From a bacterium (GTDB lineage: Bacteria > Planctomycetota > Planctomycetia > Planctomycetales > Planctomycetaceae): 64,000 bases of DNA. The notes beneath the pieces were generated by a model, which saw nothing but the letters and a program-made list of their open reading frames with translations, was not told the DNA's origin and did no database searches. The position numbers were made by a program, and so were the translations under genes. Positions 6,441 through 56,995 of the stretch are shown here, in pieces. Numbering within the stretch: position 1 is the stretch's first letter; each line of letters starts with the position of its first letter. The DNA is taken from contig WGMU01000058.1 of the NCBI GenBank assembly GCA_016124895.1, positions 1-64,000 on the forward strand, in the 5' to 3' direction.

Positions 6441-6520
6441 GTTGCCGCGACGCTGATGTTCATTGACGCCGAGTCCGGTGAGAGTCCGGCATTCACGACC
6501 AGCCACCCGAGCAGAAATCA

Positions 6521-6560
6521 AACAGCGATTCGGCACTGGGCCGGGTCGCTGTTTCTGTTT
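6521..6560 (+). terminator. Terminator after cpaB, in the 306-base gap 6441-6746
   Basis: AAACAGCGA (6521-6529) pairs with TCGCTGTTT (6547-6555), and the inner bases TTCGGC/GCCGGG extend the stem to a 5-base loop. TCTGTTT follows. It lies about 80 bases after the cpaB stop and would split the tad locus into two transcripts, or tune expression between them. The rest of the gap shows only a spaced inverted repeat (CAGACAGGT at about 6667, ACCTGTCTG at about 6725) just before the next gene, possibly regulatory. Confidence 0.7.
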
Positions 6561-6746
6561 GCGGTCACTCGGCAGAACTCCCGTCCGGATGCGCGGGCAG
6601 GAGTCTCCCTGGTTGTCAGCAATTGCCGATTTGACGCGTCACGGTCCCGGAATCTGGCCTAAGTTCCAGACAGGTCTGTCTGCGCAGACTTGCGCCCGAT
6701 TGCTGAAGCGCGCGGGCCGGTTTGAACCTGTCTGAATCACGATGCC

Positions 6747-8087: not shown

Positions 8088-8148
8088 GGACATGGCCGAC
8101 GACGTTCGGCCCGACCGACGCGTCAGTCCCATCGTTCGAGGTTTCCAC

Positions 8149-9489: not shown

Positions 9490-9603
9490 GAAGAAGTGGG
9501 TCGGGAGTGGGCAACCGGCAGTAGAAAGCGGGGAACAACAGATCCCCGATCGGCCATCGCAGATCTCAGATTTCAAATCGCCAATCACATCGAGACATCT
9601 CTC

Positions 9604-10464
9604 ATGTCCGCCATACTCTCCAGCAAACCGATCGAACGCCTCTCTGACTTCGCAGGGATTCTGCGCGATCAGGAAGTCTTTGGTTCAGAAGAAGACACCG
9701 GCTTCGGAAACTCGATCAATTCCTGGTTCGACAAGCTGATGCTGCAGTCCGGCATGGGGGTCGCACCGTCGATGCTGCTGGCGATGTCTCTGTTTCTGGG
9801 TGTTGTCGGCTTCGGCATGACGTTCATCATCCAGGAAAACATGCTGACGTCACTGCTGGTTGGAGCCATGGGCGCGGTCGCTCCGGTCATTACAGCCGTC
9901 TTTGTGAGGCAGCGGCGGCAGAAGAAAATGATGCAGCAGCTTCCCGCGATGATTGACGAACTCGCCCGTGCCGCCAAAACCGGCCGCAGTATCGAACAGT
10001 GCTGGGAACTGGTGTCGCATGACACGCCGGCACCGCTCGGTGACGAACTGATGGACTGCAACCGCCGGATGAAGATGGGGGACGATCTGTCTCTGGCACT
10101 GCAGGCTCTGCCGCATCGGACCGGGATTATCACACTCAATATTCTGGTCACGACGCTGACCGTGCATCAGCAGACGGGTGGCGACCTCGTCAGCGTTCTC
10201 GAACGTCTGTCGCAAACGATCCGCGACCGGCTGTTGTTCTTCGGCCGGCTGAGAGCGGCAACAGTCGGTGCCCGCTGGACGGCGATCATGATGCTGGCAC
10301 TCGTGCCGTTCATCGTTGTGTTCTTCTCGCTCGGCGATCCCGAATACTTCCCGAAAATCATGGCTTCCAGCATGGGCCGTATGGCGACGATTACCGCGAT
10401 CGTCTTTCAGATGATCGGCACTGGCTGGATTCTCCGCATTCTGCATAACAGTCAGCGGAATTGA
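9604..10464 (+). CDS. TadB-like inner-membrane platform protein
   Basis: Type II secretion F-domain protein that forms the pilus platform with its TadC partner. ATG at 9604 gives 286 residues; the 36 codons upstream read as untranslated sequence. Two N-terminal membrane helices (around residues 47-90) are followed by the cytoplasmic F domain (QLPAMIDELARAAKTGRSIE and TTLTVHQQTGGDLVSVLERL) and two C-terminal helices. It is shorter than many TadB proteins because the N-terminal region is reduced. Confidence 0.86.
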   Translation: MSAILSSKPIERLSDFAGILRDQEVFGSEEDTGFGNSINSWFDKLMLQSGMGVAPSMLLAMSLFLGVVGFGMTFIIQENMLTSLLVGAMGAVAPVITAVFVRQRRQKKMMQQLPAMIDELARAAKTGRSIEQCWELVSHDTPAPLGDELMDCNRRMKMGDDLSLALQALPHRTGIITLNILVTTLTVHQQTGGDLVSVLERLSQTIRDRLLFFGRLRAATVGARWTAIMMLALVPFIVVFFSLGDPEYFPKIMASSMGRMATITAIVFQMIGTGWILRILHNSQRN

Positions 10465-10603
10465 TGACGTCGCATCCAGGTTCTGTCCTGCCTGGCAACG
10501 TTGATGCCGTTTCTGATTGTCGCGCAGAACACCGGCACATGACCGGCCATCGAACGACTGATAACTCGCGATTTCCCTGCCAGCTCACGCTGGAGAACTG
10601 GTT

Positions 10604-11935
10604 ATGAATCTGCCCGTCAATCCACTGTTCCTGACGTTCTGGAGTCTGCTCGGCCTGCTGGTCCTGCTGCTGATTGTGCGGCGGATCGTGAAGTGGCGTA
10701 CTCACGCGCGGGCGCTGCGTGAATATCGCGAAGCTGAATATCAGGCGGCGCTGAGCGAAGCCTCGCGCGCGGAGGCGGACGAAGTTCGACGGGCGTCCGC
10801 AGCCGGTTCTTCAGGAACGGGACGCGAGTCTCTGGATTCGGCATCCGGCACTGACTCTGACGCCGTTGACCGACCGGAAGTCTCCTCGTACGAAAAGTCG
10901 TCGGCTGCTGCTTCAGAAACAGTTCTGCCCGTTCGCCCGTCTGTGATTCAGGCGGACCGTTATCAGGCGTGGTCACCACCGGAAGTGGAGACGTGGGAGC
11001 CACCCGCCGGTCTGGTTTACGATGTGAGCTGGGCAGACCAGGAACTGTTTCGCAGCCACGAAACGTCGTTCGAGGAACCGGAACACATTCCCAAAGTGAA
11101 GCCAGAGGACGTGCCGACCAGCGAGACAGAGGATCTGGCATTCGGACCGGCCACGCTGGCGATGGCTTCGCTGATGCCGATGTCTGACGAGGCCCGTATC
11201 CGTGCCGAACTCAAACAGGCCGGCTTTCATCAGCCGCACGCGATGGCCAATCTGCAGGCCACGCGTTTCGTTCTGGTGGGCGGTACGATTGGAATGTTTG
11301 CCGTGCTGCTGCTGATCGTACCGAAGGTGCTGGAGATTCCTGTGCTGCTGGGCATGATTTCCGTGCCGCTGTTCTTCTGGGCGATTCCGCGAATGTATAT
11401 CCAGGGGCGTGCGAAGGAGCGAAAGTCACAGATCGAACGCGCCATGCCCGACATGCTCGACATGCTGAATATGTGCGTCAGCCAGGGTTTGACAATCCCA
11501 ACGTCGCTGCGACGGATCGCGATCGACCTGAAGCCGGTTTATCCGGATCTCGCGTCTGAACTCGGCATGGTCGTCCATCAGGGCGAAGTGGGCAGTATGA
11601 CCGTTGCGCTGAACAACTTCGGCGAACGTATGGACGTTCCGGAAGTCGACTCGTTCGTCTCACTGATGACGCAGGCTGAGAAGATGGGCACCAACGTGTC
11701 CGACGCTCTGACCGAATACAGCAATACGATGCGCGAAAGCCTCCGGCAGCGAACGGACGAGAAGGCCAACAACGCGTCGTTCAAGCTGATGTTCCCGACC
11801 GTGCTGCTGATGATGCCCGCCGTGTTTCTGTTTCTGATGGGCCCGGCGATTCTGGAACTGGATCAGTTCTTCAATCAGGGCGGCCTGGAGAACATTTCCC
11901 AGGGCGCCGAGGAAATCCGCAACTTCGCGCAGTAG
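10604..11935 (+). CDS. TadC-like inner-membrane platform protein
   Basis: Second F-domain platform protein. The 443 residues begin with a membrane helix (FLTFWSLLGLLVLLLIVRRI), then a long charged insert of about 180 residues rich in Glu, Ser and Pro, then two helices (about 220-265), the F domain (RAMPDMLDMLNMCVSQGLTI, FVSLMTQAEKMGTNVSDAL) and a terminal helix. The large insert is longer than in typical TadC proteins. GGAG precedes the ATG. Last gene of the tad locus; a strong terminator follows. Confidence 0.86.
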   Translation: MNLPVNPLFLTFWSLLGLLVLLLIVRRIVKWRTHARALREYREAEYQAALSEASRAEADEVRRASAAGSSGTGRESLDSASGTDSDAVDRPEVSSYEKSSAAASETVLPVRPSVIQADRYQAWSPPEVETWEPPAGLVYDVSWADQELFRSHETSFEEPEHIPKVKPEDVPTSETEDLAFGPATLAMASLMPMSDEARIRAELKQAGFHQPHAMANLQATRFVLVGGTIGMFAVLLLIVPKVLEIPVLLGMISVPLFFWAIPRMYIQGRAKERKSQIERAMPDMLDMLNMCVSQGLTIPTSLRRIAIDLKPVYPDLASELGMVVHQGEVGSMTVALNNFGERMDVPEVDSFVSLMTQAEKMGTNVSDALTEYSNTMRESLRQRTDEKANNASFKLMFPTVLLMMPAVFLFLMGPAILELDQFFNQGGLENISQGAEEIRNFAQ

Positions 11936-32628: not shown

Positions 32629-34623
32629 TCACTCAGGTCGCAGCTTCGGTCCTTTCAGACCTGACGAGTGGTTCGCGAATGCGACCGTTGATCGTTGTGG
32701 TGCTCGCGCGCGGCGTCCTGCGATTGCCGGTGGTGGCGCCGTTTCTCCGGAGTCGATCCTCTGAATGCCCGCATCCGACAGGAATTCGATCAACATTGTG
32801 CCAACCGGTGAACCGAGCCCCGTGCAGGCGTTCCACCCAGATGCCGGATCACTCTGGGCTCTGACACTGTAAAAGGGAATGTCTGCGTGGCTGACGCAGT
32901 TATCACCCGACATGGCCTGTCGAAACGCATTCGTTCCAATCGCCTGGTAAAGCCGGGCGTTGACGTTGCTCAGACTGGCTCCGCACTTCTGATTGATGCA
33001 GGCCAGCAGCGACGCCCACAGGGGGGCCGCGGCGCTTGTGCCGCCTCCTGCAGTGGCGACACCACCGAGAATGATTCGATACCCCTTTGCCAGGTCGGCC
33101 GACGCGGCAACATCCGGTACGCCGCGGCCTCGAAAGTCAGGGTTGCTGTGGGCCGATGGACTCAGCCAGGTGCCGGAGCCCTTCAGATCGCCCGGACTCG
33201 GTACATTCGCGTCCGACTGCCACTCAGGCTGATTGAAGTGACCACTGATCCCGCCGGTTGAGGCGAGGTGAAACCCGTTGATATGTTCGTTCCAGGCGAC
33301 CTCGCCGTCTGTCTGGACATTCTGATCCGTCAGAATGGTTCCGCCACAGGCCAGCACGTAGGGGCTTGAGGCGGGAAAACAGACGTTGGCACAGGTTGCT
33401 GGACTGGCGGGATTGGGAGGCAGGCCGACAGAACCAAAGTCACCGGACGCGCAGCAGACTGTAATCCCGCTGGCGTGCAGTTGTTTGAGTGGGTCATTCA
33501 GTGAGTTCAGGTCACCGGCTTTGTACCCGGATTCGGTCTTCCCCCAACTGTCGGTGATGACTGTCGGCCGCGTGATGTCCTGCCCGCCAGCGCTGTTGCG
33601 GTCTCCCGCCAACGCGTACAGGGCGAGCCGAAATTCCTGGGTTCCGCCGCCGACAAAGTAAACGTCAATCTCCGCTTCGGGAGCCAGTGCGGCCACCAGC
33701 TCAATGTCCATCGTGACTTCGAGCATGTGTGACCATTCGCCGAAGTCACTGCCGTACTTCATGATGGCGGCTTCGCCATCCTGGTTGACGGCTTCGGTGA
33801 TCTCGGCCAGCTTCTGCCGGTCCATCTGCTGATTCCAGCCTCCTGACAGACCGATCCAGTTGATTTTCGCCCTCGCAGAGAGTCCGAGTTCCTTGAGAAA
33901 CCGGTTGATGTCTTCCAGATAAAAGCCGCCGCCGAATTCGAGAATGGCAATGCGCTGACCGGCTCCCTTGCTGTCCTCGGGAAACTGGTAGTAGTCCGCG
34001 ACGTCCAGCGGGTTCATCAGAGGCAACCCGCTCGCAGTACCCGTCCCCACCATCGCGTCCAGTTGAGCAGCGAAATTCCGGTCGTAGCACGGGATATCAT
34101 CCAGACCCAGCACGGCTTCGACCTTGTCCACCAGTTCGTCGGGCAGATGAATGGCCTCATCATGCGCACGGTAGGAACCGCGATCGTGCTCGTACTGCGC
34201 CAGTTGAACTTTGAATGCCGCGGAGAGGTCGGCTGCCGTTCCTTCCAGTACGACATCGTGGCGAAGGTTCGAGACGTCCACGACATCAAGGTGGTGCTCC
34301 TCCGCAAACATCCGGACCAGTTCGATATCGGCGTCGGCCGGTGCGTAGAGATTCGCCAGTTCGGAGAGCGACGTGTCCCTACTGACGAAACTGCAGGCTG
34401 CTGCACCGGCCCTCTCATCTTCCACGCCACCGACACCCCGGGATTCCGGATGCAGAACCAGTGTGACGCGGAAGCGTTCTGCCGGAACCGATGCAGGCAT
34501 CATCATGCCGGGAAGCGCTCTTGCCATCAGCCTCGACGTTGTGTCGTGGCCCTTCGACAGATCAGCAACTTTGCGGGCACCGCGAAGATGTACGGGGCGA
34601 CTGTCAGGAACTTCTCGTGTCAT
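32629..34623 (-). CDS. S53 (sedolisin/kumamolisin-like) peptidase
   Basis: 664 residues with a pro-domain (about 48-170, starts FRVTLVLHPES) and a catalytic domain (about 205-600). The Ser-Glu-Asp triad is visible: LEVTMDIELVAALAPEA (Glu and Asp), SWG, the oxyanion Asp in CCASGDFG, and the nucleophile in GGGTSAAAPLWASLL. No signal peptide is evident, unusual for sedolisins, which are normally secreted and acid-active; the first about 45 residues are Arg/Ala-rich. Last gene of a minus-strand set (37307 to 32629) with 1-15 base gaps to the preceding two. In the RiPP setting it could remove the leader, but that is inference. Confidence 0.85.
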   Translation of the reverse strand: MTREVPDSRPVHLRGARKVADLSKGHDTTSRLMARALPGMMMPASVPAERFRVTLVLHPESRGVGGVEDERAGAAACSFVSRDTSLSELANLYAPADADIELVRMFAEEHHLDVVDVSNLRHDVVLEGTAADLSAAFKVQLAQYEHDRGSYRAHDEAIHLPDELVDKVEAVLGLDDIPCYDRNFAAQLDAMVGTGTASGLPLMNPLDVADYYQFPEDSKGAGQRIAILEFGGGFYLEDINRFLKELGLSARAKINWIGLSGGWNQQMDRQKLAEITEAVNQDGEAAIMKYGSDFGEWSHMLEVTMDIELVAALAPEAEIDVYFVGGGTQEFRLALYALAGDRNSAGGQDITRPTVITDSWGKTESGYKAGDLNSLNDPLKQLHASGITVCCASGDFGSVGLPPNPASPATCANVCFPASSPYVLACGGTILTDQNVQTDGEVAWNEHINGFHLASTGGISGHFNQPEWQSDANVPSPGDLKGSGTWLSPSAHSNPDFRGRGVPDVAASADLAKGYRIILGGVATAGGGTSAAAPLWASLLACINQKCGASLSNVNARLYQAIGTNAFRQAMSGDNCVSHADIPFYSVRAQSDPASGWNACTGLGSPVGTMLIEFLSDAGIQRIDSGETAPPPAIAGRRARAPQRSTVAFANHSSGLKGPKLRPE

Positions 34624-34624
34624 C

Positions 34625-35542
34625 TCACTGCTGCCTTGAAACAGATTTCCGCGGATCGGATAAGTTCGCCGATGCTACCCGGCCGGGAGCCAGTGGAGAC
34701 AGAAATTCTCGAACAACCGCGTTAAAACGCGGAGCAGCCGTCATGATCAGAAAGTGATTTCCACCGTCGCCGCGTTCAATCACTTCCAGCCGGGCGTTGG
34801 GCATCTGCTGGCTCATCCAGTGGTGCGACTGCCACGGGATGACGCTGTCACGCCCGGCGACGACGAGCGCGGGAAGAGTCACCGTGGGGATGACGTCGCG
34901 CCAGTCCCGCTCACACAGATCCAGAAACAGTGTTGCCGCCGATCTCCGCGGCAGCTTCAGGTTCTCGGCGATGATCCATTCCCGATCGGCGTCGGAAACG
35001 CAGCCGTCGAGCGATCTGGTCAGCATGGTCCGAGTGAATGCGTCGCCGTCGGGACCAGTCAGAGCGGCCGTCATCTGGTGAACCGTTCGCAATTCCATCA
35101 CGGCACCCGCGGTTTCGCACTCAAGAGGTGACCAGCCAGGTCGACGCATCATGCACGGAGGTGATTCGACGATGATCAGCTTCTGCACTCGGTCACTGGC
35201 GAACTGTTGCCAGTAACTCCAGATCACGGCGCCACCCATCGAATGGCCCAGCAGAGTGACGTCCGAAAGGTTCCACGTTTCCAGAGTGTCGTGCAGGTCG
35301 CGGGCGAACTGCGGAATGCTGAAACCGGATTCGACATTGGATGACTCGCCGTGACCGCGCATGTTCAAAGCGATACACCGGAAGTCCCGGCTGAGGTCCT
35401 CAAGCTGAAAGCGAAACTCGCTGGCTGACTGCGACCAGCCGGGAATCATCACCAGAGTCGGCCCGGAACCCGCCTGCAGAAAGTGGAGTCTGGCTCCGTC
35501 GCGAGTCGTCACGTATCCGGAAGTGGCTGGCCCGATGCTCAC
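34625..35542 (-). CDS. Alpha/beta hydrolase
   Basis: 305 residues. The fold is shown by PTLVMIPGWSQSASEFRFQL, IALNMRGHGESS, the nucleophile elbow LLGHSMGGAVIWSY, VVAGRDSVIPW and the catalytic His in DGGNHFL. No signal peptide. It is one base from the S53 gene and 14 bases from the methyltransferase gene, so the three are probably co-transcribed. Substrate unknown: ester or peptide hydrolysis, or acyl transfer, are all possible for the fold. A second paralog lies at 36501-37307. Confidence 0.85.
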   Translation of the reverse strand: MSIGPATSGYVTTRDGARLHFLQAGSGPTLVMIPGWSQSASEFRFQLEDLSRDFRCIALNMRGHGESSNVESGFSIPQFARDLHDTLETWNLSDVTLLGHSMGGAVIWSYWQQFASDRVQKLIIVESPPCMMRRPGWSPLECETAGAVMELRTVHQMTAALTGPDGDAFTRTMLTRSLDGCVSDADREWIIAENLKLPRRSAATLFLDLCERDWRDVIPTVTLPALVVAGRDSVIPWQSHHWMSQQMPNARLEVIERGDGGNHFLIMTAAPRFNAVVREFLSPLAPGRVASANLSDPRKSVSRQQ

Positions 35543-35556
35543 AGCATTCCTCCGGG

Positions 35557-36414
35557 TTACTCCGTGGCGGGGGCAGACTGTCTTGTCGAAATCGAGAAGT
35601 AATACGGTGGAGTCGCAGGAGCGAATAATCGCGGAGCGGTCCCCCAGCGACCGAAGCTGGCGTCCGGATCACCGATCTGCACCGCGCTGCCCTGCCATCC
35701 GAAGTTCGCCAGAAACACGACCGGATCCTTGACTCCCGAATGCAGCGGGCAGCCCATCTCCTGCCACATCCTGAGGAATGGCTGAGCCATTTCAGAGTCG
35801 AAGTACTCGACCGAGGCCATGTCAGCACCGAGCCAGCTTCCCGCACTGGCGACTTCTCCCAGAGCCGCAAACAGTTCCGGGATGGCCGGCTCAGGCAGGT
35901 AAGGCAGCACGCCCTCCATGATGAATGCCGCAGGGCGGGTTCGATCAAATCCGGCCTTCTGCAATGGAGTCACCCAGTCGAATTCCAGATCAGCGGCGAC
36001 CATCTGCCGTGAGCAACGGGGGGTGACGTCCAGATCCCTGAGCACCGACTCCTTGTGCTCACAGACGCACGGCTGATCGACTTCGTAAAGTTGAATTGCG
36101 TTTGGACAGGGAAGCCGGAAAGCGCGAGTGTCCATTCCGGCTCCCAGCAGAACAATCTGGTCGATCTCCAGTTCGTTGACCGCTCGCAGCAGTGCGTCGT
36201 CGTAGTAGCGGGTTCTTATGGAGATCCCCGTCGACGGTGTATGCAGCGAGTGGCCAGGCAGGCACGACTGCATTTTCTCGTACACCTCAAAGCCCTGCGG
36301 ACCAGCCAGCGCCTCGGCGAGTGGATCGTCAAACAGCCGTTTCGGTTGCTGTGTTTCCAGTGCGCGAGCGGCGGCCATGCACAGGGCAGTTGCCTCGACA
36401 GGGGGAAGTGCCAT
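35557..36414 (-). CDS. Leucine carboxyl methyltransferase-like SAM enzyme
   Basis: 285 residues of the LCMT/PPM-type class I methyltransferase family. Landmarks are RTRYYDDALLRAV, the SAM loop IVLLGAGMDTRAFRL, YEVDQP and the FIMEGVLPYLPE segment; the N-terminal KRLFDDPLAEALAG is also typical. Known relatives methylate carboxylates (for example the C-terminal Leu of phosphatase 2A) or hydroxyls of small molecules. In this cluster a carboxyl-methyl ester on the peptide C-terminus would fit, but this is inference. A 14-base gap separates it from the downstream hydrolase, 86 bases from the upstream hydrolase. Confidence 0.82.
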   Translation of the reverse strand: MALPPVEATALCMAAARALETQQPKRLFDDPLAEALAGPQGFEVYEKMQSCLPGHSLHTPSTGISIRTRYYDDALLRAVNELEIDQIVLLGAGMDTRAFRLPCPNAIQLYEVDQPCVCEHKESVLRDLDVTPRCSRQMVAADLEFDWVTPLQKAGFDRTRPAAFIMEGVLPYLPEPAIPELFAALGEVASAGSWLGADMASVEYFDSEMAQPFLRMWQEMGCPLHSGVKDPVVFLANFGWQGSAVQIGDPDASFGRWGTAPRLFAPATPPYYFSISTRQSAPATE

Positions 36415-36500
36415 CGTTGTCTCGTCTGGTGAGATGTGACTGACAGGTATGGTTCGTATGCAGAAGAACTTTCCGAAATCAGCCGCACTCCTGAGAAGAT

Positions 36501-37307
36501 TCAGAAAACGGCAGCTTCCAGGAACTTAAGTACCGTCCGATTGAACGCAGCCGGTTGCTCGAAGTACGCCGAATGTCCGGCACCAGGAATCTCGGCGTAG
36601 GTTGCACCGCTGATACGTTTGGCGATTCCGCGAGCGAGAACCGGCGGCACGAGGACATCATGACTGCCAGTCAGCACCAGTGTAGGGATTCCGGACTTCA
36701 CAATCGCATCTGGTTCAATCTGAAAGCTTCCGAGGCCAGGCAGCAAATCAGGAAACGCCACGGAATTCAAGGCACTGATCTGATTGAGCAGAAACCAACG
36801 TGCGGGATAGCTCGCCTGGAATTCCGGCGTGGCGGCAAGATCGGACCGGGCGATGGGCATGTTACCGCTGTCAGGGCCGGCGTTCTTCAGGTTCAAGCCT
36901 GCATAAAGCTGCGATGGTGACGGCACATTGCCAGCCGGGCGAAACCCGGAGGAGGATGCCGAAAGGACGAGTGCCGCGACGCGTTCGGGATACTCGGTGG
37001 CCAGTCCGGCAACCGTAACGCCGCCCATCGACTGGCCGATCAGTGCGGCACGTTCGATCTCAAGCCAGTCCAGCAGTCCCAGCAGATCGGCGATCAGATC
37101 GGCAGGAGCTGGCGCAGCGGCTCGACATTGCGTCAGCCCGAAGCCGCGATGATCGAACGTAATGACCTGGTAAGACTCAGCGAATTCCGGAACCTGCTGC
37201 CACCAGCTCAAGTGATTTCCGCCAGCGCCGTGAGCAAACACAACCGGTGGACCCGCTCCGGAAACTTCGTAGTAAAGACGAAGGCCGTTCAGATCGGCGT
37301 AAGGCAT
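36501..37307 (-). CDS. Alpha/beta hydrolase, first gene of the divergent operon
   Basis: 268 residues. FAHGAGGNHLSWWQQVPEF, ITFDHRGFG, the nucleophile elbow LIGQSMGGVTVAGLA, LVLTGSHDVLVPP and IPGAGHSAYFE give a complete Ser-Asp-His set. No signal peptide. Transcribed away from the peptide precursor with 190 bases between the two start codons, so the promoters face each other. In fungal borosin pathways a peptidase of the same broad fold family (prolyl oligopeptidase) cuts and cyclises the core; whether this small protein does something comparable is open. Confidence 0.85.
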   Translation of the reverse strand: MPYADLNGLRLYYEVSGAGPPVVFAHGAGGNHLSWWQQVPEFAESYQVITFDHRGFGLTQCRAAAPAPADLIADLLGLLDWLEIERAALIGQSMGGVTVAGLATEYPERVAALVLSASSSGFRPAGNVPSPSQLYAGLNLKNAGPDSGNMPIARSDLAATPEFQASYPARWFLLNQISALNSVAFPDLLPGLGSFQIEPDAIVKSGIPTLVLTGSHDVLVPPVLARGIAKRISGATYAEIPGAGHSAYFEQPAAFNRTVLKFLEAAVF

Positions 37308-37497
37308 GACTTGCCCCTGAGGTCATCTGTTCAAAACACCCTTCGATACATTCGGTTCTGCAATTCCGTGGCAATACTTGCATAACTGGAGCAGAACTGG
37401 TTCACTGAATTCGTACCCGGCGACCGCCGAGTATCGCGATGGGCGGCATTCTGACCGACATGCCAACAGTATTACCAGTTACAGGAAGGCAGACGCG
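37308..37497. promoter_or_regulatory. Divergent promoter region of the RiPP cluster
   Basis: 190 bases between the start codons of the hydrolase (minus) and the precursor (plus). GTTCTGC (37355-37361) and GCAGAAC (37391-37397) are a spaced inverted repeat in the middle, a candidate operator. A shorter one, GGCAT/ATGCC (37445-37464), lies in the precursor leader. AGGAAGG (37482-37488) is the precursor ribosome site. No convincing -35/-10 pair is assigned. Confidence 0.4.
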
Positions 37498-37707
37498 ATG
37501 GACCAGAAACTCAAGGACTTCATCAATGCCACTGGCAGCGATCACACGAAGCTGGGGTCGTTCATCAACGATCCGGAGAAGCATCTGGATGATGCCGGGA
37601 TTACCTGCCCGGACGAACGGCACCTCGTCAAAGTGACCATTGCCGCTGGCGTGTCCAGTAAACTTGCAGGGGACGACGGCCAGCAGTCCTTCATTATCGC
37701 GTACTGA
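37498..37707 (+). CDS. Putative RiPP precursor peptide, split-borosin type
   Basis: 69 residues from ATG 37498, with AGGAAGG 9 bases upstream; the longer open frame upstream is non-coding in character. Residues 1-46 form a helical, charged leader (starts MDQKLKDFINATGSDHTKLG) with NDPE at 24-27 and AGIT at 33-36. This spacing recalls the borosin-binding domain of separate (split) borosin precursors, as far as I remember SonA. The C-terminus runs GVSSKLAGDDGQQSFIIAY, with a hydrophilic linker and a hydrophobic end (SFIIAY, 64-69) like an N-methylated core. It directly precedes YcaO, TfuA and a borosin-type methyltransferase. A strong hairpin separates it from ycaO. Also conceivable: a small regulator, but the context argues against that. 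Confidence 0.82.
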   Translation: MDQKLKDFINATGSDHTKLGSFINDPEKHLDDAGITCPDERHLVKVTIAAGVSSKLAGDDGQQSFIIAY

Positions 37708-37741
37708 GGCGTCGCCTTCTGACACAACTGACGACGAATGG

Positions 37742-37780
37742 ATGCCGTCTCGTGACGCTCACGAGGCGGCATTTCTGTTT
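37742..37780 (+). terminator. 14-bp attenuator/terminator between precursor and ycaO
   Basis: ATGCCGTCTCGTGA (37742-37755), loop CGC, TCACGAGGCGGCAT (37759-37772), with one T-G wobble, then TTTCTGTTT. It lies 35 bases past the precursor stop and 31 bases before the ycaO start. Such leaky terminators let RiPP operons make far more precursor than enzyme. Confidence 0.85.
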
Positions 37781-37810
37781 CACCGGCTGGAATGACTCGG
37801 GTCACGACTT

Positions 37811-39058
37811 ATGACGACAGACCTCTGGCGCGAGATCAGTCAGCTCAGCGGCTCACCGCGTTATCGGTTTGGAACGATGCGTTCGACATCTCCGCGACGG
37901 ACACTCAACCGGCTGCGTCCGCTGCTGCCACTCGCCGGAATCACGCGACTCGCTCGAGTGACGGATCTGGATACCATTGGAATTCCCGTTTATCAGGCGG
38001 TACGTCCCAATTCGCACAACCTGTCGGTCTCTCAGGGAAAAGGGCTGACGCGAGCGCAGGCCCGAATCTCGGCGGTGATGGAAGCTGTCGAGAACTTTCA
38101 CGCAGAGAACATCGAGCTGCCGACGATCCGGGCTTCCATCCGCGAGATCCGGGATCGACTGCATTACGACCCGTATCAACTGGCGACAACCAGTACGCAC
38201 CTGGAAGCCGTTTATCGCGATTCGAGCTACGACGCTCTGGCACCACCCATCGGCGAGAGCCACTTTCTGAGCGACGATCTGCAACTCGACTGGTGGCCGG
38301 CGACGAATCTGGTCACTGGTGAAGAATCGTGGGTGCCGCGTCAGCTCTGCGATCTGAATTTCAGTATCCGCGAGGAGTTCGACGTCTTTCCATTTCGAGC
38401 GACCTCGAACGGACTGGCCAGTGGAAACGCGGTCGTGGAGGCACTGATTCATGGACTCTGCGAGGTCATCGAACGCGATTCGTTCGTCAGAAATGCCGGG
38501 TTCCGGGCCAACCCGGAACGTTACATCCGGCTGAGCAGTGTCGACTCAGCAGTGCCAGCCGGCGTCATTCGCAGGCTGGAGCAGGCCGGGCTCTCTCCAC
38601 TGATTCTCGACGTGACCGGCGAGATGGGAGTTCCGTGCTTTGACGTCGAACTTCGGCAGGTCGATCGTCCGACGTTTCAAGGGTTCGGCTGCCATCCGTT
38701 TCGTGATACCGCGCTGGTGAGAGCTTTAACAGAAGCGGCGCAGTCGCGACTGGCACATATTTCGGGCACACGAGACGATCTGTTTCGGCATACCTATCAG
38801 CCACCGGAAGTGCTCTCCGACATTGACCTGCCATTCGATGAGGTCGCTCCACAGACGCCCGATCCGCAGGGGAACTATTCAGACTGCTGTCATCTGCCGG
38901 GCACGGACTGGAAGGAGATGCTGTTGGAACTGGTGAGCCGCATCGAACGCTTTACCGGGACGGCCCCGCTGGCCATCGATCTGCGTCGCGAAGAATTCGG
39001 CATTCCGGTGACGATGGTGATTGCGCCGGGTCTGCTCAGTCCGGGGACGCGACGATGA
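37811..39058 (+). CDS. YcaO-domain peptide-backbone modifying enzyme
   Basis: 415 residues. YcaO enzymes phosphorylate an amide oxygen with ATP to form azolines, thioamides or amidines. Landmarks: YRFGTMRSTSP (18-28), GITRLARVTDLDTIGIPVYQ (43-62), the ATP loop VSQGKG (73-78), Glu91/Glu94 in MEAVE, SNGLASG (199-205) and CEVIERD (217-223). The C-terminus lacks the proline-rich PxPxP ending seen in azoline-forming cyclodehydratases, and no E1-like or F-protein partner or dehydrogenase is nearby. With TfuA adjacent, thioamidation is the best guess. ATG 37811 fits the domain start although no clear ribosome site is seen. Its stop overlaps the tfuA start (ATGA). Confidence 0.92.
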   Translation: MTTDLWREISQLSGSPRYRFGTMRSTSPRRTLNRLRPLLPLAGITRLARVTDLDTIGIPVYQAVRPNSHNLSVSQGKGLTRAQARISAVMEAVENFHAENIELPTIRASIREIRDRLHYDPYQLATTSTHLEAVYRDSSYDALAPPIGESHFLSDDLQLDWWPATNLVTGEESWVPRQLCDLNFSIREEFDVFPFRATSNGLASGNAVVEALIHGLCEVIERDSFVRNAGFRANPERYIRLSSVDSAVPAGVIRRLEQAGLSPLILDVTGEMGVPCFDVELRQVDRPTFQGFGCHPFRDTALVRALTEAAQSRLAHISGTRDDLFRHTYQPPEVLSDIDLPFDEVAPQTPDPQGNYSDCCHLPGTDWKEMLLELVSRIERFTGTAPLAIDLRREEFGIPVTMVIAPGLLSPGTRR

Positions 39059-40581
39059 GTGTCATTTCCGAGCGACCGCGGATGCGTTTTTATGCCGGGC
39101 CATCGATCCGCTGGAACGAGATCGAAGAGCTGTGCTCAGGACTGGATGCCGTCGTCGAGATCGCTCCGCCCATCGAACAGGGAGACCTGCTGCGTGACCT
39201 CAGTCGCCTGCCCGACGTGATCGGCATCATTGACGGGTACTTCTATCAGGTGCCGTCGGTGCTGCATAAAGAGATTCTGCTGGCGCTCGAAGCAGGCTCG
39301 CGTGTGCTGGGAGCCGCCAGTCTCGGAGCATTGCGCGCTGCCGAACTTGACGTCTTCGGCATGGAGGGCGTGGGCCGGATTTATGAGTGGTTCGCGGACG
39401 GTTCGATTGATGGTGACGACGAGGTTGCCGTGCAGCATGGTCCTGGAGAAATCGGATTCCGCCCGCTGACTGTCCCGCTGGTCAACGTGCGACACGCGAT
39501 TCAGCTGGCGACGGCGCACAGCCTCATCAGCCGGGATGATGGCCGGTCGATTCTCTCAGCGGCTCAGGACATCCATTTTTCCAGACGCACCTGGGGGCGT
39601 CTGTTCGACCACGATCGATTGCGGGCAATTGACGGCGGCGTTCCATTTCGTGAGTTCATTGCTCAGCGGGCTCCGGATCTGAAACATGAGGATGCGCGGA
39701 CACTGGTCGAAACAGTTGTTAAACGCGTCCGCCACCGTCGTGAATGGCCGGACCGGCTGGACTGCCGAGTCAAGTCGTCGAAGTACACCTACCTGATGCG
39801 GCATCAATATGCCGGAAGCTGGTCGGGATCGCGGCATCTCCCGGACAGTCAGGTGGTGTCATTTCAGAAAGTGCTCGATCCGTCGTTTCCAGACATTGTC
39901 GAGTGCGTCGTCCGACGGATTGTCGCCTGTGACGAAGCGGCCCATCGCGGACTGGTTGCGGAATCGCCTGAGGTTCTTGAACGGAAATTCCGCGAGGAAA
40001 CCAACCGGCTGGACAACAGCCACTTTCGCGACTGGCTGAACTGTCAGGGACTGTCGCGCGACGAACTGGTGGCCTGGCTGCGGGCCTGCGATCTCGAACG
40101 CCAGATCGAGGCTGCCGTTTCAGTCTCAGAGTCGCGGGGGCCGCACGCTGTCATTCTTCAGGCCGTTGCCGCGCGCCGCGGACTCGCCGAAACCGATCTA
40201 CCAGCACTGACGCTGTCGCGGCAGACGATCGCGTTTGATCTGCCGCTGATTCGTGAGCTGAAGTGTACGGGGCGTTTTTCGGAAGCGCGTCACGTTGCTG
40301 CTGGCATTCTTGATTCCGTCGATGCCGCGTTCGCTGGAAACCATCGTCTGCGGGCGATCATGGAAGCGCTCGGCGATCTGGTGCGGACGTCTTTCGACGA
40401 ATGGGCGGCGGCCCTGTGGGGCATCCCGACCGAGGCCCTGCCGGCTGAACTCGTTCGTCGTGCGATTCACAGCGGTGCGGAATTCATTGATATCGTGCGT
40501 CTCTGCAAGCTGCATCAGGAACACGGCAGCGGATGCTCGGACTCGTCGCCAGTCGCAACCGTTGACGGGAGCGGGATATGA
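39055..40581 (+). CDS. TfuA-like YcaO partner with a long C-terminal extension
   Basis: 508 residues. Residues about 10-170 are a TfuA domain: IIDGYFYQVPSVLHKEI (58-74), VLGAASLGALRAAEL (84-98), FGMEGVGRIYEWFADG (101-116) and DDEVAVQH (121-128). TfuA proteins work with YcaO in backbone thioamidation, where they are thought to help deliver sulfur. The remaining about 320 residues are helical, Arg/Glu-rich and unlike a plain TfuA protein of 200-250 residues; they may bind the precursor leader or the methyltransferase. No cysteine-rich sulfur site stands out. Both ends overlap neighbouring genes by four bases, so YcaO, TfuA and the methyltransferase are translationally linked. Confidence 0.9.
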   Translation: MSVISERPRMRFYAGPSIRWNEIEELCSGLDAVVEIAPPIEQGDLLRDLSRLPDVIGIIDGYFYQVPSVLHKEILLALEAGSRVLGAASLGALRAAELDVFGMEGVGRIYEWFADGSIDGDDEVAVQHGPGEIGFRPLTVPLVNVRHAIQLATAHSLISRDDGRSILSAAQDIHFSRRTWGRLFDHDRLRAIDGGVPFREFIAQRAPDLKHEDARTLVETVVKRVRHRREWPDRLDCRVKSSKYTYLMRHQYAGSWSGSRHLPDSQVVSFQKVLDPSFPDIVECVVRRIVACDEAAHRGLVAESPEVLERKFREETNRLDNSHFRDWLNCQGLSRDELVAWLRACDLERQIEAAVSVSESRGPHAVILQAVAARRGLAETDLPALTLSRQTIAFDLPLIRELKCTGRFSEARHVAAGILDSVDAAFAGNHRLRAIMEALGDLVRTSFDEWAAALWGIPTEALPAELVRRAIHSGAEFIDIVRLCKLHQEHGSGCSDSSPVATVDGSGI

Positions 40582-41411
40582 CCGAATCAGCCGCCAGAGT
40601 CGGTTCTCTGTCAGTCGTGGGTACAGGGATCCGGACGGCAGGACAGTTGACGACAGAAACCATCGAACGCATTCGACGTGCGGACATCGTGCTGTTTCTG
40701 GGCAGCGACCCGGCGCTCGAATCGATCCTGCAGACGCTGAACAGCAATCTGGAGTCGCTGGCAAGTGTGTATTCTCCAGGCGGCAACCGCGGCGACAGTA
40801 TTCGGGCACTCGCCGAGCGCATTGTCGCTCCGGTCCGACGCGGGCTGACGACCTGTGCCGCTCTGATGGGGCATCCCGGTGTGTTCTGCGTCGCTGGTCA
40901 CAACGCCGTACAGATCGCTCGACAAGAAGGCTTCATCGCCCGGATGCTGCCGGCCGTTTCCGCCGAGGACTGTCTGTTTGCGGACCTGGGAGTTGATCCA
41001 TCGACGGCCGGGTGTCAGAGCTTCGAGGCCATGCAGTTGCTCCTCAAGAACTACCGCATCGATCCTCGCTGTCATCTGATCCTGTGGCAGATTGGTGTGA
41101 TGGGCGATCCGATCTTTCGACCGCAGGGCTACGATCTGTCGGCGCTGCCATTGCTGATCGAACGGCTGTCAGCGGAATACTCGGCGGACCACGTCGTGAC
41201 TGTGTACAGCGCGACGCTGCAGGAAGCCGGATTCCCGTCGATTCGGCAGACGCCACTCGGCGGGCTCAGGAAATCACTGCTGAGTTCTGCATCGACGCTT
41301 TATGTGCCGCCGCTCGCCCCTGCCGAACCGGATACCGAGGTCGTCGCTCGACTGCGAGCCGTCGGCTTTCCCGTCGAACTTTATCTGCGGTCGTTTGACC
41401 ATTTCCGATAA
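40578..41411 (+). CDS. Borosin-type peptide N-methyltransferase (tetrapyrrole-methylase fold)
   Basis: 277 residues. The N-terminal VVGTGIRTAGQLTTETIE (13-30), GHPGVF (98-103) and above all ARMLPAVSAEDCLFADL (121-137) with DPSTAGC (140-146) match, from memory, the same blocks in the fungal borosin enzyme OphMA far better than in cobalamin-pathway methylases. Such enzymes use SAM to N-methylate successive backbone amides at the C-terminus of their own or a separate peptide. Here the enzyme has no fused core, so it would act in trans as in SonM/SonA. Tyr65 and Arg71 align with active-site residues, but the position of a catalytic-region Tyr (Y76 in OphMA numbering, as I recall) is Ile75. Confidence 0.9.
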   Translation: MTESAARVGSLSVVGTGIRTAGQLTTETIERIRRADIVLFLGSDPALESILQTLNSNLESLASVYSPGGNRGDSIRALAERIVAPVRRGLTTCAALMGHPGVFCVAGHNAVQIARQEGFIARMLPAVSAEDCLFADLGVDPSTAGCQSFEAMQLLLKNYRIDPRCHLILWQIGVMGDPIFRPQGYDLSALPLLIERLSAEYSADHVVTVYSATLQEAGFPSIRQTPLGGLRKSLLSSASTLYVPPLAPAEPDTEVVARLRAVGFPVELYLRSFDHFR

Positions 41412-41536
41412 GCAGCGTGCCTGCGCCAGACCGTTGAGCCCGTTTGTGCCGGCTGATTTCGGAAACCCGTTCCGGACAGTTTTCCAGGCGACCGCCGCGG
41501 CCGGTCGAGTCTGGTACGAAGCCTGAAGGACTGGAA

Positions 41537-44032
41537 TCAGTAAACCAGTTCGGTGCCGAAGTAGAAGTTCCGGCCAGGCTGATAAACGCCGCGGCCGGTC
41601 CGCAGATCGAGATGCTCGCGGTAGAACTTGTCCGCGAGATTCTCGACACCAAAGATGATCGAAAGATTGTCTGTTGGACGGAACGCCGTGCGGATATCAA
41701 AGGTCGCGAAGCCGGCGGTTGCCTGCTCATTGAGCGTGCGGGCGACCCGATTCTGGCTGCTGACAAGACGGGTGACGAATTCCGCCGACCAGCGATTTGA
41801 GACAGGGTCGTGCAGCCGCAGGCCGAGGCGGGATTCGAGGGGCGCGATACCGGGCAGCGCTTCGCTGTTCGCCGTAACGACTGTGCCTGTGGGGCCGACG
41901 TCGACTCCGCGCGGCAGACTCGGATCGTAGGTGACCGTGCTGTTCGCGAAGTCGAAGGTGTGCTGTCCGCCCTTCGAACGGGTGTGGTCCTGACCGCGAA
42001 CATAGCTCAGCGTCGCGAAGCCGGTCAGCCAGTCGTTCATGTCGTATTCGCCAAACATCTCGCCGCCGGTCAGCGTCGCCAGTTGAGTGTTCGTCGGACG
42101 CAGGACCAGTGAATTGAAGCCAAAGAACGTTTCCTGATTGAGGATGTTTTCATACGTGACGAAGTCGTTGACCCAGGAGTGAAAACCATTCGCCCCCAGG
42201 CGGAGGTTTCCGTAATCGGCTCGCAGACCGAGGTCGAGCTGCGTGCTGCGGGCAGGCTTCAGATCAGGATTTCCGACGACGGCATTCAGGCCGTTCTGCA
42301 GTACCGCCAGGAAGCTGCCGAAGGCGTACATTTCCGTAATGGTCGGCGGACGCTGCGAGTGACCGGCTCCGAATGTCAGCGTGACTTCGTCCGAGAGGTC
42401 GTACTCGGCTGTCGCGAACAGTGCCCACATCTGGTAACTGCGATTGAGACTCGAAACGGCCAGCGTATGCAGCAGCGAGTCTCTGGTCACCGGCATCTGG
42501 CCCATGGGATTGAAGTCATTCCCCGGCGGGATCGAATCGACGTCGGCCGTCTGCCAGTCAACGCGGGCACCAGTACGGAAGCGGAAGGGCTCATTGACCG
42601 GAGAATTCAACTCGATGAACAGACCGGGATTGCTGGTGTGTCCGTCCGGCACTCCCGAGAAGATCGGCAGTGGAAGACCAAAGCCGGGCGAAAGGCTGAA
42701 CTCGTTGATCTCCTGCTTGAGATACCTCAGGTCACTGCCGGCCCGGAGATTCAGATCGTCCTGATCGCCCCAGGTCAAAGCGGACGTGTAGCCGGTTGAA
42801 GACGTATCGGCGGCGGTGTAGACGTATTCAACGAAGGCATCGAGCTGCGGGACCTGGTTACGTTTCGACGGCGAATTGCCGTTGCCCGAGAAACGCGTCC
42901 GGTTGTACCAGCCCTCAATTTCAAAGCGGTCGAACGCCGACTGATCGACGATCTCGTACTTCAGTTCGTAACCATCCGTGACCAGATAGTCGATATCAAA
43001 GAACGCTCCAGGGAACTGCACGCCGGTCTGGTCCAGTCGCAGGTAACTGAACTCGATGCGGCTGTCGTCGGTGGGGTCATAGCCAAGTGCGACGTCCCAG
43101 TCCCGTGAATTCAGACTCGACGGAAGCTTCTGTCCGTCGCCTGCGGTGTAATCATTCGCCGTTCGATGACCGTATCCGACGCGGTAGCCCCAGTTGTCAT
43201 CGCCACCCGTGAGCATCTGACGTCCGTAGAACGCTTCGCCATTCGTCTGATATTCCAGACTGGTGCTGCCGTGCGTTTCCTGACCGTCGGAGTACCGCGG
43301 GCTCTGCTGGAGCTGAAAGTCAACAAAGTTGAGGCCTGGTCCGTGTTCGACACTGTACGGCCCCTTGGTCACGATGACGTCGCTGATAATCCGCGAATCG
43401 ATCTTGCTGAGCATCGTGTCCATGTCGTCGCGGGCTGGATACCAGTACGAACCGGAGGCTTTCAGATTGCCGAGCCCCAGGCCGCGCACGCGCGTGTCCG
43501 TCACGATGGGAGATCGGCGTTGCGATGCGACACCGACGGCAGCGTTCGACTTGAAGAGCAGGCTGCCGACATCCGATGTCGCGCGACCTTGTGACTCATT
43601 TCCCTGAACGACGATCGATCCGGGAGCCCGCGCACGCCGCAGGCGGGAACTGGCCAGCAGACTCGACTGCAGATTGTTGTCACGAAAGATCCGTTCCGCC
43701 AGGAGCTGCGACTGTTCCGGTTCCGGAGCCTGCGGTGTGAGCATCGACGGTTCCGGAAGCAGAGGCTGAGCCACATCCTGGCTGACCAGTCGCACGTAAC
43801 CGACGTCCGCGGCATTGGGATCCACCCAGGGGGTCGTCGACTGAAAGACCGCGGTCACGTCGCCAAAGGTGAGTCCTTCGTCTTCCGGCGAGTCGAGTTC
43901 AATCATGATGACGGCCGGAGGCGCCGGCTCCGCGTCCGTCAGTGGATCATCTGCACTCGCAGCGGCGCTGGACAGCAGCAGCAGAGCGGCCGACAGAGCG
44001 GTCGACGATTTCCATCGAAGCGGATGGAACAT
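41537..44032 (-). CDS. TonB-dependent outer-membrane receptor
   Basis: 831 residues with a signal peptide (TALSAALLLLSSAAASAD). A plug domain (about 130-255) contains VRGLGLGN and SVEHGPG; the rest is a beta-barrel ending in the classical GRNFYFGTELVY with a C-terminal aromatic. VENLADKFYREHLD near the end is typical of the last strands. About 100 residues separate the signal peptide from the plug, longer than usual; no clear TonB box is picked out. Such receptors import siderophores, other metal chelates, cobalamin or peptides. It is convergent with the methyltransferase gene, 125 bases away, so uptake of the cluster product or its metal complex is possible but unproven. Confidence 0.85.
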   Translation of the reverse strand: MFHPLRWKSSTALSAALLLLSSAAASADDPLTDAEPAPPAVIMIELDSPEDEGLTFGDVTAVFQSTTPWVDPNAADVGYVRLVSQDVAQPLLPEPSMLTPQAPEPEQSQLLAERIFRDNNLQSSLLASSRLRRARAPGSIVVQGNESQGRATSDVGSLLFKSNAAVGVASQRRSPIVTDTRVRGLGLGNLKASGSYWYPARDDMDTMLSKIDSRIISDVIVTKGPYSVEHGPGLNFVDFQLQQSPRYSDGQETHGSTSLEYQTNGEAFYGRQMLTGGDDNWGYRVGYGHRTANDYTAGDGQKLPSSLNSRDWDVALGYDPTDDSRIEFSYLRLDQTGVQFPGAFFDIDYLVTDGYELKYEIVDQSAFDRFEIEGWYNRTRFSGNGNSPSKRNQVPQLDAFVEYVYTAADTSSTGYTSALTWGDQDDLNLRAGSDLRYLKQEINEFSLSPGFGLPLPIFSGVPDGHTSNPGLFIELNSPVNEPFRFRTGARVDWQTADVDSIPPGNDFNPMGQMPVTRDSLLHTLAVSSLNRSYQMWALFATAEYDLSDEVTLTFGAGHSQRPPTITEMYAFGSFLAVLQNGLNAVVGNPDLKPARSTQLDLGLRADYGNLRLGANGFHSWVNDFVTYENILNQETFFGFNSLVLRPTNTQLATLTGGEMFGEYDMNDWLTGFATLSYVRGQDHTRSKGGQHTFDFANSTVTYDPSLPRGVDVGPTGTVVTANSEALPGIAPLESRLGLRLHDPVSNRWSAEFVTRLVSSQNRVARTLNEQATAGFATFDIRTAFRPTDNLSIIFGVENLADKFYREHLDLRTGRGVYQPGRNFYFGTELVY

Positions 44033-54096: not shown

Positions 54097-55423
54097 GGAG
54101 CGACCTGGGAATTAGTGTCGAGTCGGAAGCGAATTCTGTTTTATAAGGCGTCTTTCTCTTTGGAAAGGAGCCACGGATGGCCACGGCACAGGTGACGCGA
54201 TTTGATGAGCACACCGAACAGCAGATGAGAAATGTCTACCAGACACTCTCCGAGAAGGACAGGCGGCGGTTCGCCGCGATTCAGGCGGTGCAGCTCGGGC
54301 ATGGAGGAACGACATACATCGCCGAGGTTCTGGGGTGTTCCATTCGAACCATCAGGCGAGGCCGTGACGAACTCGACCAGCTCGCCGAAGAAGACACGCC
54401 TGGCCGGATTCGCCGGCCGGGAGCTGGACGCCCCCAAAAATCACGCCCGGCTCTGACGTCGAAGAGAATCTGAAGACGCAGCTGGAAACCAGAACCGCCG
54501 GCGACCCCGATGACGAGGACGTGGTCTTCACCGACGTCACTCCGGTGCAGCTCGAAGAGGCGCTGACCGCGTGCGGAACTCCGGCGTCCGATGATGCGAT
54601 TCGCTCCTGGATGAAGCGGCAGCGGATTCGGCTGAGGAAGATTCAGAAGACAAAAGCCGGCGGGACATCGCCCGATCGGAACGATCAGTTCGAGAACATC
54701 GCCCGGCTGATCGACGAGTACACCTCGGCCGGCAACCCAGTGTTCTCCGTGGATACCAAAGCGAAGGAGCAGCTCGGCCAGCTGTTTCGTGCAGGCCGCA
54801 GCTGGTGCTCTGAGGCGCAGGTGGCCTTTGACCACGACTTCCCTTCGTGGGCGGACGGCGTGTTGATTCCACACGGGATTTACGATCCGGTTCGCAACCG
54901 CGGCCACATCAACCTTGGTCTTTCGCACGACACCAGCGAGTTCGCCGGCGACAGTCTGAAGTGGTACTGGAACCGGATCGGCGTGCAGAGTTATCCCGAT
55001 GCCGAATCGATTCTGCTGCTGTTCGACTGTGGTGGCAGCAACTCCGCCGCGAAATACATCGTGAAGTACGATCTTCAGCAACTGGCAAACGTGATCGGGT
55101 TGCCGCTTCGAGTCGCCCCCTACCCGAGCTACTGCTCGAAGTACAACCTGATCGAGCGGCGCTTGTTCCCGCACGTGAGCCGTGTGTGTACGGGCAAGCT
55201 GTTCGACACGCTGGACCGCGTTGTGACGTTAATGCGGCAAGCCTCGACACAAACCGGTCTGCGGACCACGGTGCATGTGATCCGCCGCCTCTATGAAACG
55301 GGCCGCAACGCCACTGAAGAAATCAAACAGTTCCTCGCCGAAACCGTCCGCTACGAAGACCTGCTCCCCAAGTGGAACTACACTCTCGTCCCTCAAAATG
55401 GACAGTAATTCCCAGGACGGTCC
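54097..55423 (+). mobile_element. Complete ISAzo13-family insertion sequence
   Basis: 1327 bases with imperfect terminal inverted repeats: GGAGCGACCTGGGAATTAG (left, from 54097) against GGACCGTCCTGGGAATTAC (complement of the right end at 55423), about 22 of 27 positions equal. Three-base direct repeats TTA flank both ends (54094-54096 and 55424-55426). The right TTA is also part of the TTAG next to the IS701-like element, so the two elements abut. Confidence 0.85.
54177..55408 (+). CDS. ISAzo13-family transposase, two frames joined by a likely -1 frameshift
   Basis: ATG 54177 has AAGGAG 8 bases upstream. The first frame (54177-54473, 98 residues) carries the HTH region (IAEVLGCSIRTIRRGRDELD). 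The second, in the -1 frame from about 54440 to 55408, carries the DDE domain: VFSVDTKAKEQLGQL, LIPHGIYDP, LLLFDCGGSNS and YNLIERRLFPHVSR. The frames meet at CCCCCAAAAAT (about 54431), which could let the ribosome slip back one base and give a fusion of about 410 residues. No frame-restoring sequence change was otherwise found. An inactivating frameshift mutation is the alternative. Confidence 0.75.
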
Positions 55424-55427
55424 TTAG

Positions 55428-56995
55428 CTCGACTTCTGCCGTCAGGCGGCCTGGCAGAGTAAGTCGAGCAGGGTGTCTTTGAATTGTGACGGAGCTTTTG
55501 CGAGGGCTCTGGCGAAGGAGTCCTGTTGAAAAACGGTTTCGGTCCAGAACAGACGGCGGACGCTTTCCAGGGCGTCGCTGAAGGTTGGTTCCGACTTCTC
55601 GTACCAGGGACGTGAGGCTGGTTCGCATTCGGCGCTGGCCGTGTGGCGGTGGTCGATCAGGCTCACCAGGGAGTACAGGCCCAGCAGGAATGGGGCCATG
55701 CGCTGCACGGAACGGGCCACACGCTGGCGGGGAGTCTCGAATCCCAGATGAGCCCGAACTTCCTGAAACGTGACTTCGATCGTCCAGCGTTGAGTGTCAT
55801 GACTAACGATCTCTGCCGGTGTGAACTGGCCGGGCAGCGTGCAGTACTCGTATTCGTCGCGTCGTGTGCCGGTGTTGTCGCGTACGAAGACCCATCGCAC
55901 GGGCACGAGTCCGCGGTCAGCCTTGTACCAGTGAGCCGATGCAGAGGCCAGCTTCACTTCGCGGTCCGTGCAGCCGTGCCAGCGGACGGTCTGCGTCGAC
56001 AGTGAACCGGCGGTAACGACTTCACCAGGCGTCCGTCGTCGGCGTCCTCTGACTCGCGGTCGCCCCTGTCCGGAATACGCAGGCGGCCGGTCATACAGAG
56101 CGGCATCTGCATGGAAGCGGCTGATCAACCCGACTCGATCTCCATGGCGATGACAGAACGAAGCCAGTTCGTGCGAGGCCCGGCGAGGCCGGCTGATTAC
56201 AAATGAGACAGACATTTCGTCACGTTGGTTCTCTCGGCCCTGACGGATTCCAGTAATCCGCCCGTGGCGGCCGCCGTCACCGAGCAGCAGGAATTTCCGC
56301 TCGGGAAACCAGTGCAGCAGATGAGCCATCAACTAACGGGCCAGTTGAGCCGGTGTCTTGTGCCGCCGGTCTTCCTGCCGGTTGAGTTCCTCCGGACGGT
56401 ACAACGCGGCCAGCACCGGCAACGCCCACGGACGAGCAGCCAACGGGAACTTCACGATGACCGCCAGCACCACCCAGCGATGCCCCCACTTCCAGGTCGT
56501 ATGCACATGCGACGAACGCACGGCATCGTGATGACAGCCCTTGCCGTCGACTTTCGCCCCCTTGTGTCCGGCAGTGGTCTCGTCGACAGCGACCACCACC
56601 CACTCGTCAGGCACCAGTTCAATCACCAGCCTGGCCAGCGCTCGCCCCAGCAGCAGCAGCTTCCACGGAGCCCGGCTGAGGACACGGTGATACGCCGAGC
56701 AGTCTCCCGTCGCCAGTTCCCCCATCGTCCAGACAATGTTCGTCACGGTCCGCCACCCCCGAGCCAGAACCGCTCCCACACCGATCACCAGCATCCGCTC
56801 GAACGTGGGTTGACTGAACGCAGACGCAAACGCCATCAGCAACGCCTCAGCACACAGCGGCAACTGCATGGTTGGACTCCTTTCCGGTATGCCCCTGCGA
56901 GCCACCGCAGAGTCGGGAAGGAGTCTTTTTCAAAGCTCCCTGTTCAGGGCCAGGTCAGTTCCGAAAATCACACACGAAAACGGCAGAAGTCGAGC
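55428..56995 (-). mobile_element. IS701-like insertion sequence
   Basis: About 1.57 kb bounded by perfect 16-bp inverted repeats, GCTCGACTTCTGCCGT (55427-55442) and its complement (56980-56995). TTAG occurs at 55424-55427 and 56996-56999, matching the YTAR 4-bp target duplication of the IS701 family; the register of the ends is uncertain by one base. Its transposase gene is broken by a nonsense codon. Confidence 0.75.
55442..56869 (-). pseudogene. IS701-like DDE transposase with one in-frame TAG
   Basis: From ATG 56869 (GGAG 7 bases upstream) the frame runs 476 codons to 55442, but codon TAG at 56333-56335 splits it. The N-terminal part has VDETTAGHKGAKVDG, the first catalytic Asp; the C-terminal part resumes in the same frame with LLHWFPERKFLLLGDGG (second Asp) and RWTIEVTFQEVRAHLGFETP (Glu). 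Family logic predicts Gln at the stop (CAG to TAG). No other lesion was seen. The gene is therefore probably inactive unless read through. Confidence 0.8.

Follow-up and report, generated by a model that had tools for sequence, protein, structure and literature searches.

We analysed a 64,000-nucleotide stretch of planctomycete DNA (the window) and found in it a cluster in which a gene for a short peptide is followed by genes for a YcaO protein, a TfuA protein and a methyltransferase of the OphMA/SonM family (37498-41411, plus strand), with a second set of genes running divergently from it. All of the named ORFs are open, and the ORF check and Pfam both agree with an earlier note on this DNA as to which genes are present and where they lie. 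The features are:

32629..34623, minus strand: S53/kumamolisin-type serine peptidase (Pro-kuma_activ 5.6e-15, Peptidase_S8 5e-9)
34625..35542, minus strand: second alpha/beta hydrolase (Abhydrolase_1 2e-24)
35557..36414, minus strand: LCMT-like SAM O-methyltransferase (LCM 1.3e-52)
36501..37307, minus strand: alpha/beta hydrolase, first gene of the divergent operon (Abhydrolase_1 5e-29)
37498..37707, plus strand: putative precursor gene, 69 aa, its ATG closely preceded by an AGGAAGG Shine-Dalgarno-like motif; LigA/SonA-like borosin-binding-domain leader at about residues 3-56, C-terminal core ...AGDDGQQSFIIAY
37740..37774, plus strand: intercistronic hairpin, 16-bp stem and 3-nt loop, then a weak U-rich tail
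37811..39058, plus strand: YcaO, 415 aa (Pfam YcaO 3.4e-62)
39055..40581, plus strand: TfuA, 508 aa (PF07812 3.7e-42, NF033432 2.5e-55)
40578..41411, plus strand: OphMA/SonM-family methyltransferase, 277 aa (Pfam TP_methylase 8e-18, PDB 1.1e-55)
41537-44032, convergent, downstream of the methyltransferase: TonB receptor gene (receptor barrel, Pfam)

The three enzyme genes are joined by ATGA overlaps that can be read directly in the sequence, at 39055-39058 (YcaO/TfuA) and 40578-40581 (TfuA/methyltransferase), and the overlap of genes in one transcript unit is the main argument that the enzymes would function jointly. The earlier note had described the peptide gene and the enzyme genes as one tight operon, which holds for the enzymes but less well for the precursor gene, set apart as it is by a 103-bp spacer that holds a strong hairpin. 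This hairpin, overlooked in the earlier note, has an RNA folding energy of -25.8 kcal/mol versus -12.3 for shuffles (z -5.3), is present as a single copy in the genome and was not called as a terminator in a terminator scan. Hairpins 3′ of precursor genes are common in RiPP operons, and the one described here is likely an attenuator or mRNA stabilizer that would raise expression of the precursor over that of the enzymes. A sigma-70 promoter scan detected no promoter.

On the other side of a 190-bp intergenic region, the two hydrolase genes, the LCMT-like gene and the S53 peptidase gene are present on the minus strand as had been described, but their assignment to the pathway is unproven. Guessing from proximity and family, we consider the S53 peptidase a candidate leader protease and carboxyl methylation of a product by the LCMT-like enzyme possible; that the hydrolases belong to the pathway is likewise unproven. 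At its downstream end the cluster had been drawn as far as 44032, which stretches it over the convergent TonB receptor gene, and we place that gene probably outside the cluster because its homologues occur in relatives that lack the cluster. Further downstream, some 13 kb from the cluster, the window also contains an ISAzo13-type transposase (54521-56332; PF07592, 4e-83), beside which lies, on the opposite strand, a transposase-like ORF without a Pfam match.

We conclude that the 69-residue ORF is a predicted split-borosin precursor, being a discrete short peptide with a leader and a core, encoded in an operon with a methyltransferase from which two genes separate it. It aligns with SonA at 27% over 63 residues (pairwise BLASTP, E 4e-5), and the aligned region crosses the boundary of leader and core (SonA LSGDSSYQSYLVIS, window peptide LAGDDGQQSFIIAY). 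In searches with a profile seeded by SonA alone and iterated over the ORFs of other borosin loci, from which the window was excluded to avoid circularity, the peptide ranked first among the 1225 ORFs of the window (E 8.5e-4, the next ORF having 0.13), with a score that is modest (15-17 bits) and that none of 2000 shuffled sequences attained. Of 78 related borosin loci, 59 yielded the leader domain in a search with this profile, in 43 cases no more than 1 kb from the methyltransferase. The earlier note had made its reading depend on a short ORF conserved beside homologous operons, and the outcome favours that reading. In an alignment of the window peptide with 27 candidate precursors, a weak NCBIfam IniB_NTERM match is common to 19 of the 28 members, including the window peptide, and Pfam LigA matches 20, the window peptide not among them. 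The structure predicted for the precursor is all-helical, with four helices and a disordered C-terminus (pLDDT 77), the reference leader fold being a five-helix bundle; Foldseek of this model against the PDB gave no significant match, nor did a PDB sequence search with the peptide alone find one. Borosin precursors in the 28-member alignment also match, weakly, the TOMM/NHLP peptide models TIGR04351, TIGR04509 and NF038399, hinting that their leaders may share ancestry with those of YcaO substrates.

The methyltransferase had been read as OphMA/SonM-like and not of the cobalamin type, and this reading stands. All of its sequence matches in the PDB are borosin enzymes (1e-55 to 1e-49; dbOphMA 1.1e-55, OphMA 1e-52, SonM 7e-50), and its AlphaFold model (pLDDT 84) retrieved only OphMA/SonM-type structures as top matches in Foldseek, the best being OphA at 2e-30 and SonM at 5e-30. 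A tetrapyrrole methylase of cobalamin or siroheme synthesis was considered and rejected: the precorrin-3B methyltransferase model, the only one of the cobalamin pathway to register (0.016), and YabN (8e-9) were both far below cut-off, and there were no cobalamin-pathway genes among the Pfam-annotated neighbours.

The active site is where the enzyme departs from its family, as we observed when its residues were compared in an alignment of 93 homologues. Retained are R71 (SonM R67), Y65 (Y58), F103 (F99), W170 (W166), Q171 (Q167) and E150 (E146). Within the SonM active-site set Y58/R67/Y71/Y93, two members are thus kept and two are substituted: Ile75 occupies the position of SonM Y71/OphMA Y76, where 90 of the 93 homologues have Tyr, and Met97 that of SonM Y93/OphMA Y98, where 89 do. 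Neither replacement had been remarked on in the earlier note. Sequencing error is an unlikely source of them; the ATT and ATG codons are each two or three base changes from Tyr. Of 53 positions conserved at 88% or more, the enzyme departs at three, 75 (Tyr→Ile), 78 (Met→Leu) and 97 (Tyr→Met), and because only these three near-invariant positions differ, we view the change as focused and the protein as not decaying. In SonM, Y71 touches the i-1 carbonyl as well as the i+1 carbonyl and NH, and the substitution Y71F lowers kcat/KM about 98-fold, comparable to the 97-fold of R67K, while Y93F lowers it about 1.6-fold with a higher KM for SAM (PMC8429565). Loss of the Y71 equivalent should thus impair methylation of an ordinary amide. 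Because of the roughly 100-fold cost of Y71F, ordinary amide N-methylation should not be taken for granted here, and because the equivalents of both Y71 and Y93 are replaced, we class the enzyme as borosin-like and stop short of calling it a proven borosin N-methyltransferase. It may be altered in its substrate, slowed or catalytically dead.

How, then, should the locus be interpreted? We lean, with moderate confidence, to a hybrid RiPP operon of the split-borosin type to which YcaO-TfuA has been added, in which YcaO-TfuA would thioamidate the core and the remodelled methyltransferase would methylate the backbone of that same core. The interpretation in the earlier note, a product carrying both modifications, is largely right, but as a plain prediction of N-methyl plus thioamide it is unsupported given the replacement of two near-invariant tyrosines. 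Could the methyltransferase have been re-tuned by its YcaO-TfuA partner, such that its methyl acceptor is a thioamide in place of an amide, the methyl group going to N, or else to S with a methyl thioimidate as the product? The N-H of a thioamide is more acidic than that of an amide, and sulfur is larger and a poorer hydrogen-bond acceptor, which, by chemical reasoning, might make the tyrosine that hydrogen-bonds to the i-1 carbonyl (SonM Y71) dispensable in favour of a smaller apolar residue. The hypothesis is a natural one in view of the pairing with YcaO-TfuA and rests on one enzyme; we offer it tentatively and regard it as rather unlikely.

The same substitutions could be taken to mean that the methyltransferase is a pseudo-enzyme scaffold that binds the leader and offers up the core for YcaO-TfuA to act on, giving a product that is thioamidated and not N-methylated. 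Ile75 and Met97 at positions that are nearly always Tyr, together with the loss of activity in SonM Y71F, are consistent with such a role, and degenerate second methyltransferase domains do exist in the family, in the tandem enzymes of loci L036 and L077. Yet R71, Y65 and the SAM-lock residues F103, W170, Q171 and E150 are all retained, and apart from the two tyrosines every near-invariant position but one is intact, whereas the only other domains with a non-Tyr residue at position 75 (L036, L051 and L077) have lost the Arg as well. We consider a scaffold unlikely. The tandem proteins themselves (L036:9968-11530 and L077:9833-11626) consist of two fused methyltransferase domains of which the second is without the conserved Arg and Tyr, and are apparent fusions of an active domain with a pseudo-domain.

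Is the combination of the two systems found elsewhere? In a sample of 392 genomes from the phylum, the methyltransferase was found in three and TfuA in three, the host being counted in both, and no other genome has both. TfuA was absent from 197 relatives, among them another genome from the host's genus, 84% complete; the LCMT-like gene was absent from 39 other sampled relatives, and the S53 peptidase has homologues in only two other sampled relatives. The cluster, missing from the relatives sampled, is on this distribution an accessory island. We reached 78 borosin loci by an alignment query of contigs, a single methyltransferase query having matched none. TfuA occurs at none of the 77 distinct loci other than our own (flanks up to 10 kb, many contigs shorter), and YcaO at two, both cyanobacterial and of the cyanobactin type. 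Conversely, neither a borosin methyltransferase nor a borosin leader was found at 44 other TfuA loci, where the flanks measured roughly 1.5 to 10 kb and in some cases stopped at the end of the contig. The four-gene operon is absent from these 77 borosin and 44 TfuA loci and from eight plasmid records (seven methyltransferase matches and one TfuA match). Six of 23 borosin-bearing genomes carry TfuA elsewhere in the genome, so the two systems do meet in genomes, but not in one operon among those sampled. At one other locus in the Planctomycetales (L003:1288-2289, on a contig shared with L012), the borosin leader domain is fused to the N-terminus of the methyltransferase, with no obvious core.

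If we assume that the two systems merely lie side by side, then a borosin-type peptide would be made independently while YcaO-TfuA thioamidates some other protein. There is precedent in archaea, where YcaO-TfuA pairs are reported to modify proteins such as McrA (PMC5589413), and the failure of the combination to appear in any other sampled genome would fit such a coincidence. Against this, the ATGA overlaps join YcaO and TfuA to the methyltransferase, the precursor gene heads the operon, and the absence of TfuA from relatives and its rarity in the phylum sample argue that YcaO-TfuA is not a housekeeping pair and make a housekeeping target unlikely. Independent systems therefore seem to us quite improbable.

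We return to the hybrid pathway and its YcaO-TfuA pair, each member of which has one match in the host genome. The genes are adjacent and encode a YcaO with a conserved ATP site and a TfuA with its conserved domain, as in YcaO-TfuA thioamidated RiPPs. The closest function-specific curated model for YcaO is that for McrA-glycine thioamidation (TIGR03266, 1.1e-52, versus 2e-30 for the SagD azoline model), and in alignment with MJ1094 (PDB, 3e-24) the motifs MEAxE, ERD and RALTExxQSR coincide, the ATP-site motifs being retained. The TfuA domain spans residues 60-179, within a match to a solved TfuA (PDB 6xp8, 2.6e-36) that covers residues 36-225, and is followed by a C-terminal extension of about 280 residues (window 39727-40581); in this C-terminal half Pfam gave no match with the threshold relaxed to E 10. 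Other phyla also have TfuA ORFs about as long. That YcaO-TfuA, or YcaO alone, makes azolines on Ser/Thr instead of thioamides has in its favour Ser64 in the core and the azoline-type YcaO near the methyltransferase in two cyanobacterial loci, but is very unlikely given the scores of the thioamidation and SagD models, the TfuA partner and a core that has no Cys and that one Ser.

In the hybrid pathway that we favour, the hairpin after the precursor gene would set the ratio of precursor to enzymes, and the leader would dock on the methyltransferase dimer so that the core (...GDDGQQSFIIAY) threads through the active site, as in SonM/SonA. As in known pairs, YcaO, using ATP, and TfuA, delivering sulfur, would turn at least one backbone amide of the core into a thioamide. 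The methyltransferase would methylate the backbone of the same core, perhaps at the thioamide, proceeding from N to C along it if the analogy with SonM/SonA holds; alignment with SonA S-Y-L63-V-I65 suggests I66 and A68 as candidate positions. The S53 peptidase may remove the leader, and the LCMT and hydrolase genes may tailor the C-terminus.

The selective change in the active site suggests that the methyltransferase may have as its substrate a peptide backbone that is unusual in containing sulfur, and methylation of a thioamide, if true, would be new both as an enzymatic reaction and as a modification of the backbone. The change also bears on how borosin enzymes deprotonate and stabilize the target amide, and on whether a more acidic substrate can stand in for tyrosine. 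Backbone N-methylation and thioamidation each raise the resistance of peptides to proteolysis, and a natural pathway in which one short leader serves both enzyme systems would offer a tool, as well as a test of the way the two combine. We found no earlier report of the pairing of a borosin-type methyltransferase with YcaO-TfuA in the open literature searched: a search for borosin with YcaO gave no such cluster by title or abstract, and an earlier mention is possible because the principal surveys of borosins (Cho 2022, Imani 2022 and the RODEO borosin paper) lay outside its scope.

Of the systems closest to it, the locus resembles the type IV split borosins (SonM/SonA of Shewanella oneidensis; PMC8429565), with which it shares a separate short precursor, a LigA/SonA-like leader, a hydrophobic C-terminal core and an OphMA-family enzyme of the same fold (Foldseek 5e-30), but it differs in that YcaO and TfuA intervene, Ile and Met replace Y71 and Y93, and the methyltransferase comes last in the operon. 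With the omphalotin borosins (OphMA) it shares a methyltransferase domain of the same fold, 38% identical in structural alignment, whereas its precursor is unfused, the equivalents of Y76 and Y98 are missing and the system is bacterial. Two cyanobacterial loci, L040 (Dendronalium, 1069-2914) and L075 (Symploca, 3237-10777), are alike in that their borosin methyltransferase and borosin-leader peptide have a YcaO nearby; they are unlike the window in that their YcaO is of the azoline (cyanobactin) type with no adjoining TfuA, their precursors have DPDP-rich tails and TPR proteins are present. Loci in both of these genera also encode a large kinase-like protein. Finally, YcaO and TfuA genes that adjoin and overlap, their domains conserved, are shared with the YcaO-TfuA thioamidated RiPPs (thioamitides and relatives; PMC8120280) and with McrA thioamidation (PMC5589413), to which the window adds a borosin precursor and methyltransferase; the text of the 2021 survey describes O- and PCMT-type methyltransferases in YcaO-TfuA clusters and mentions no tetrapyrrole-methylase/OphMA enzyme (PMC8120280).
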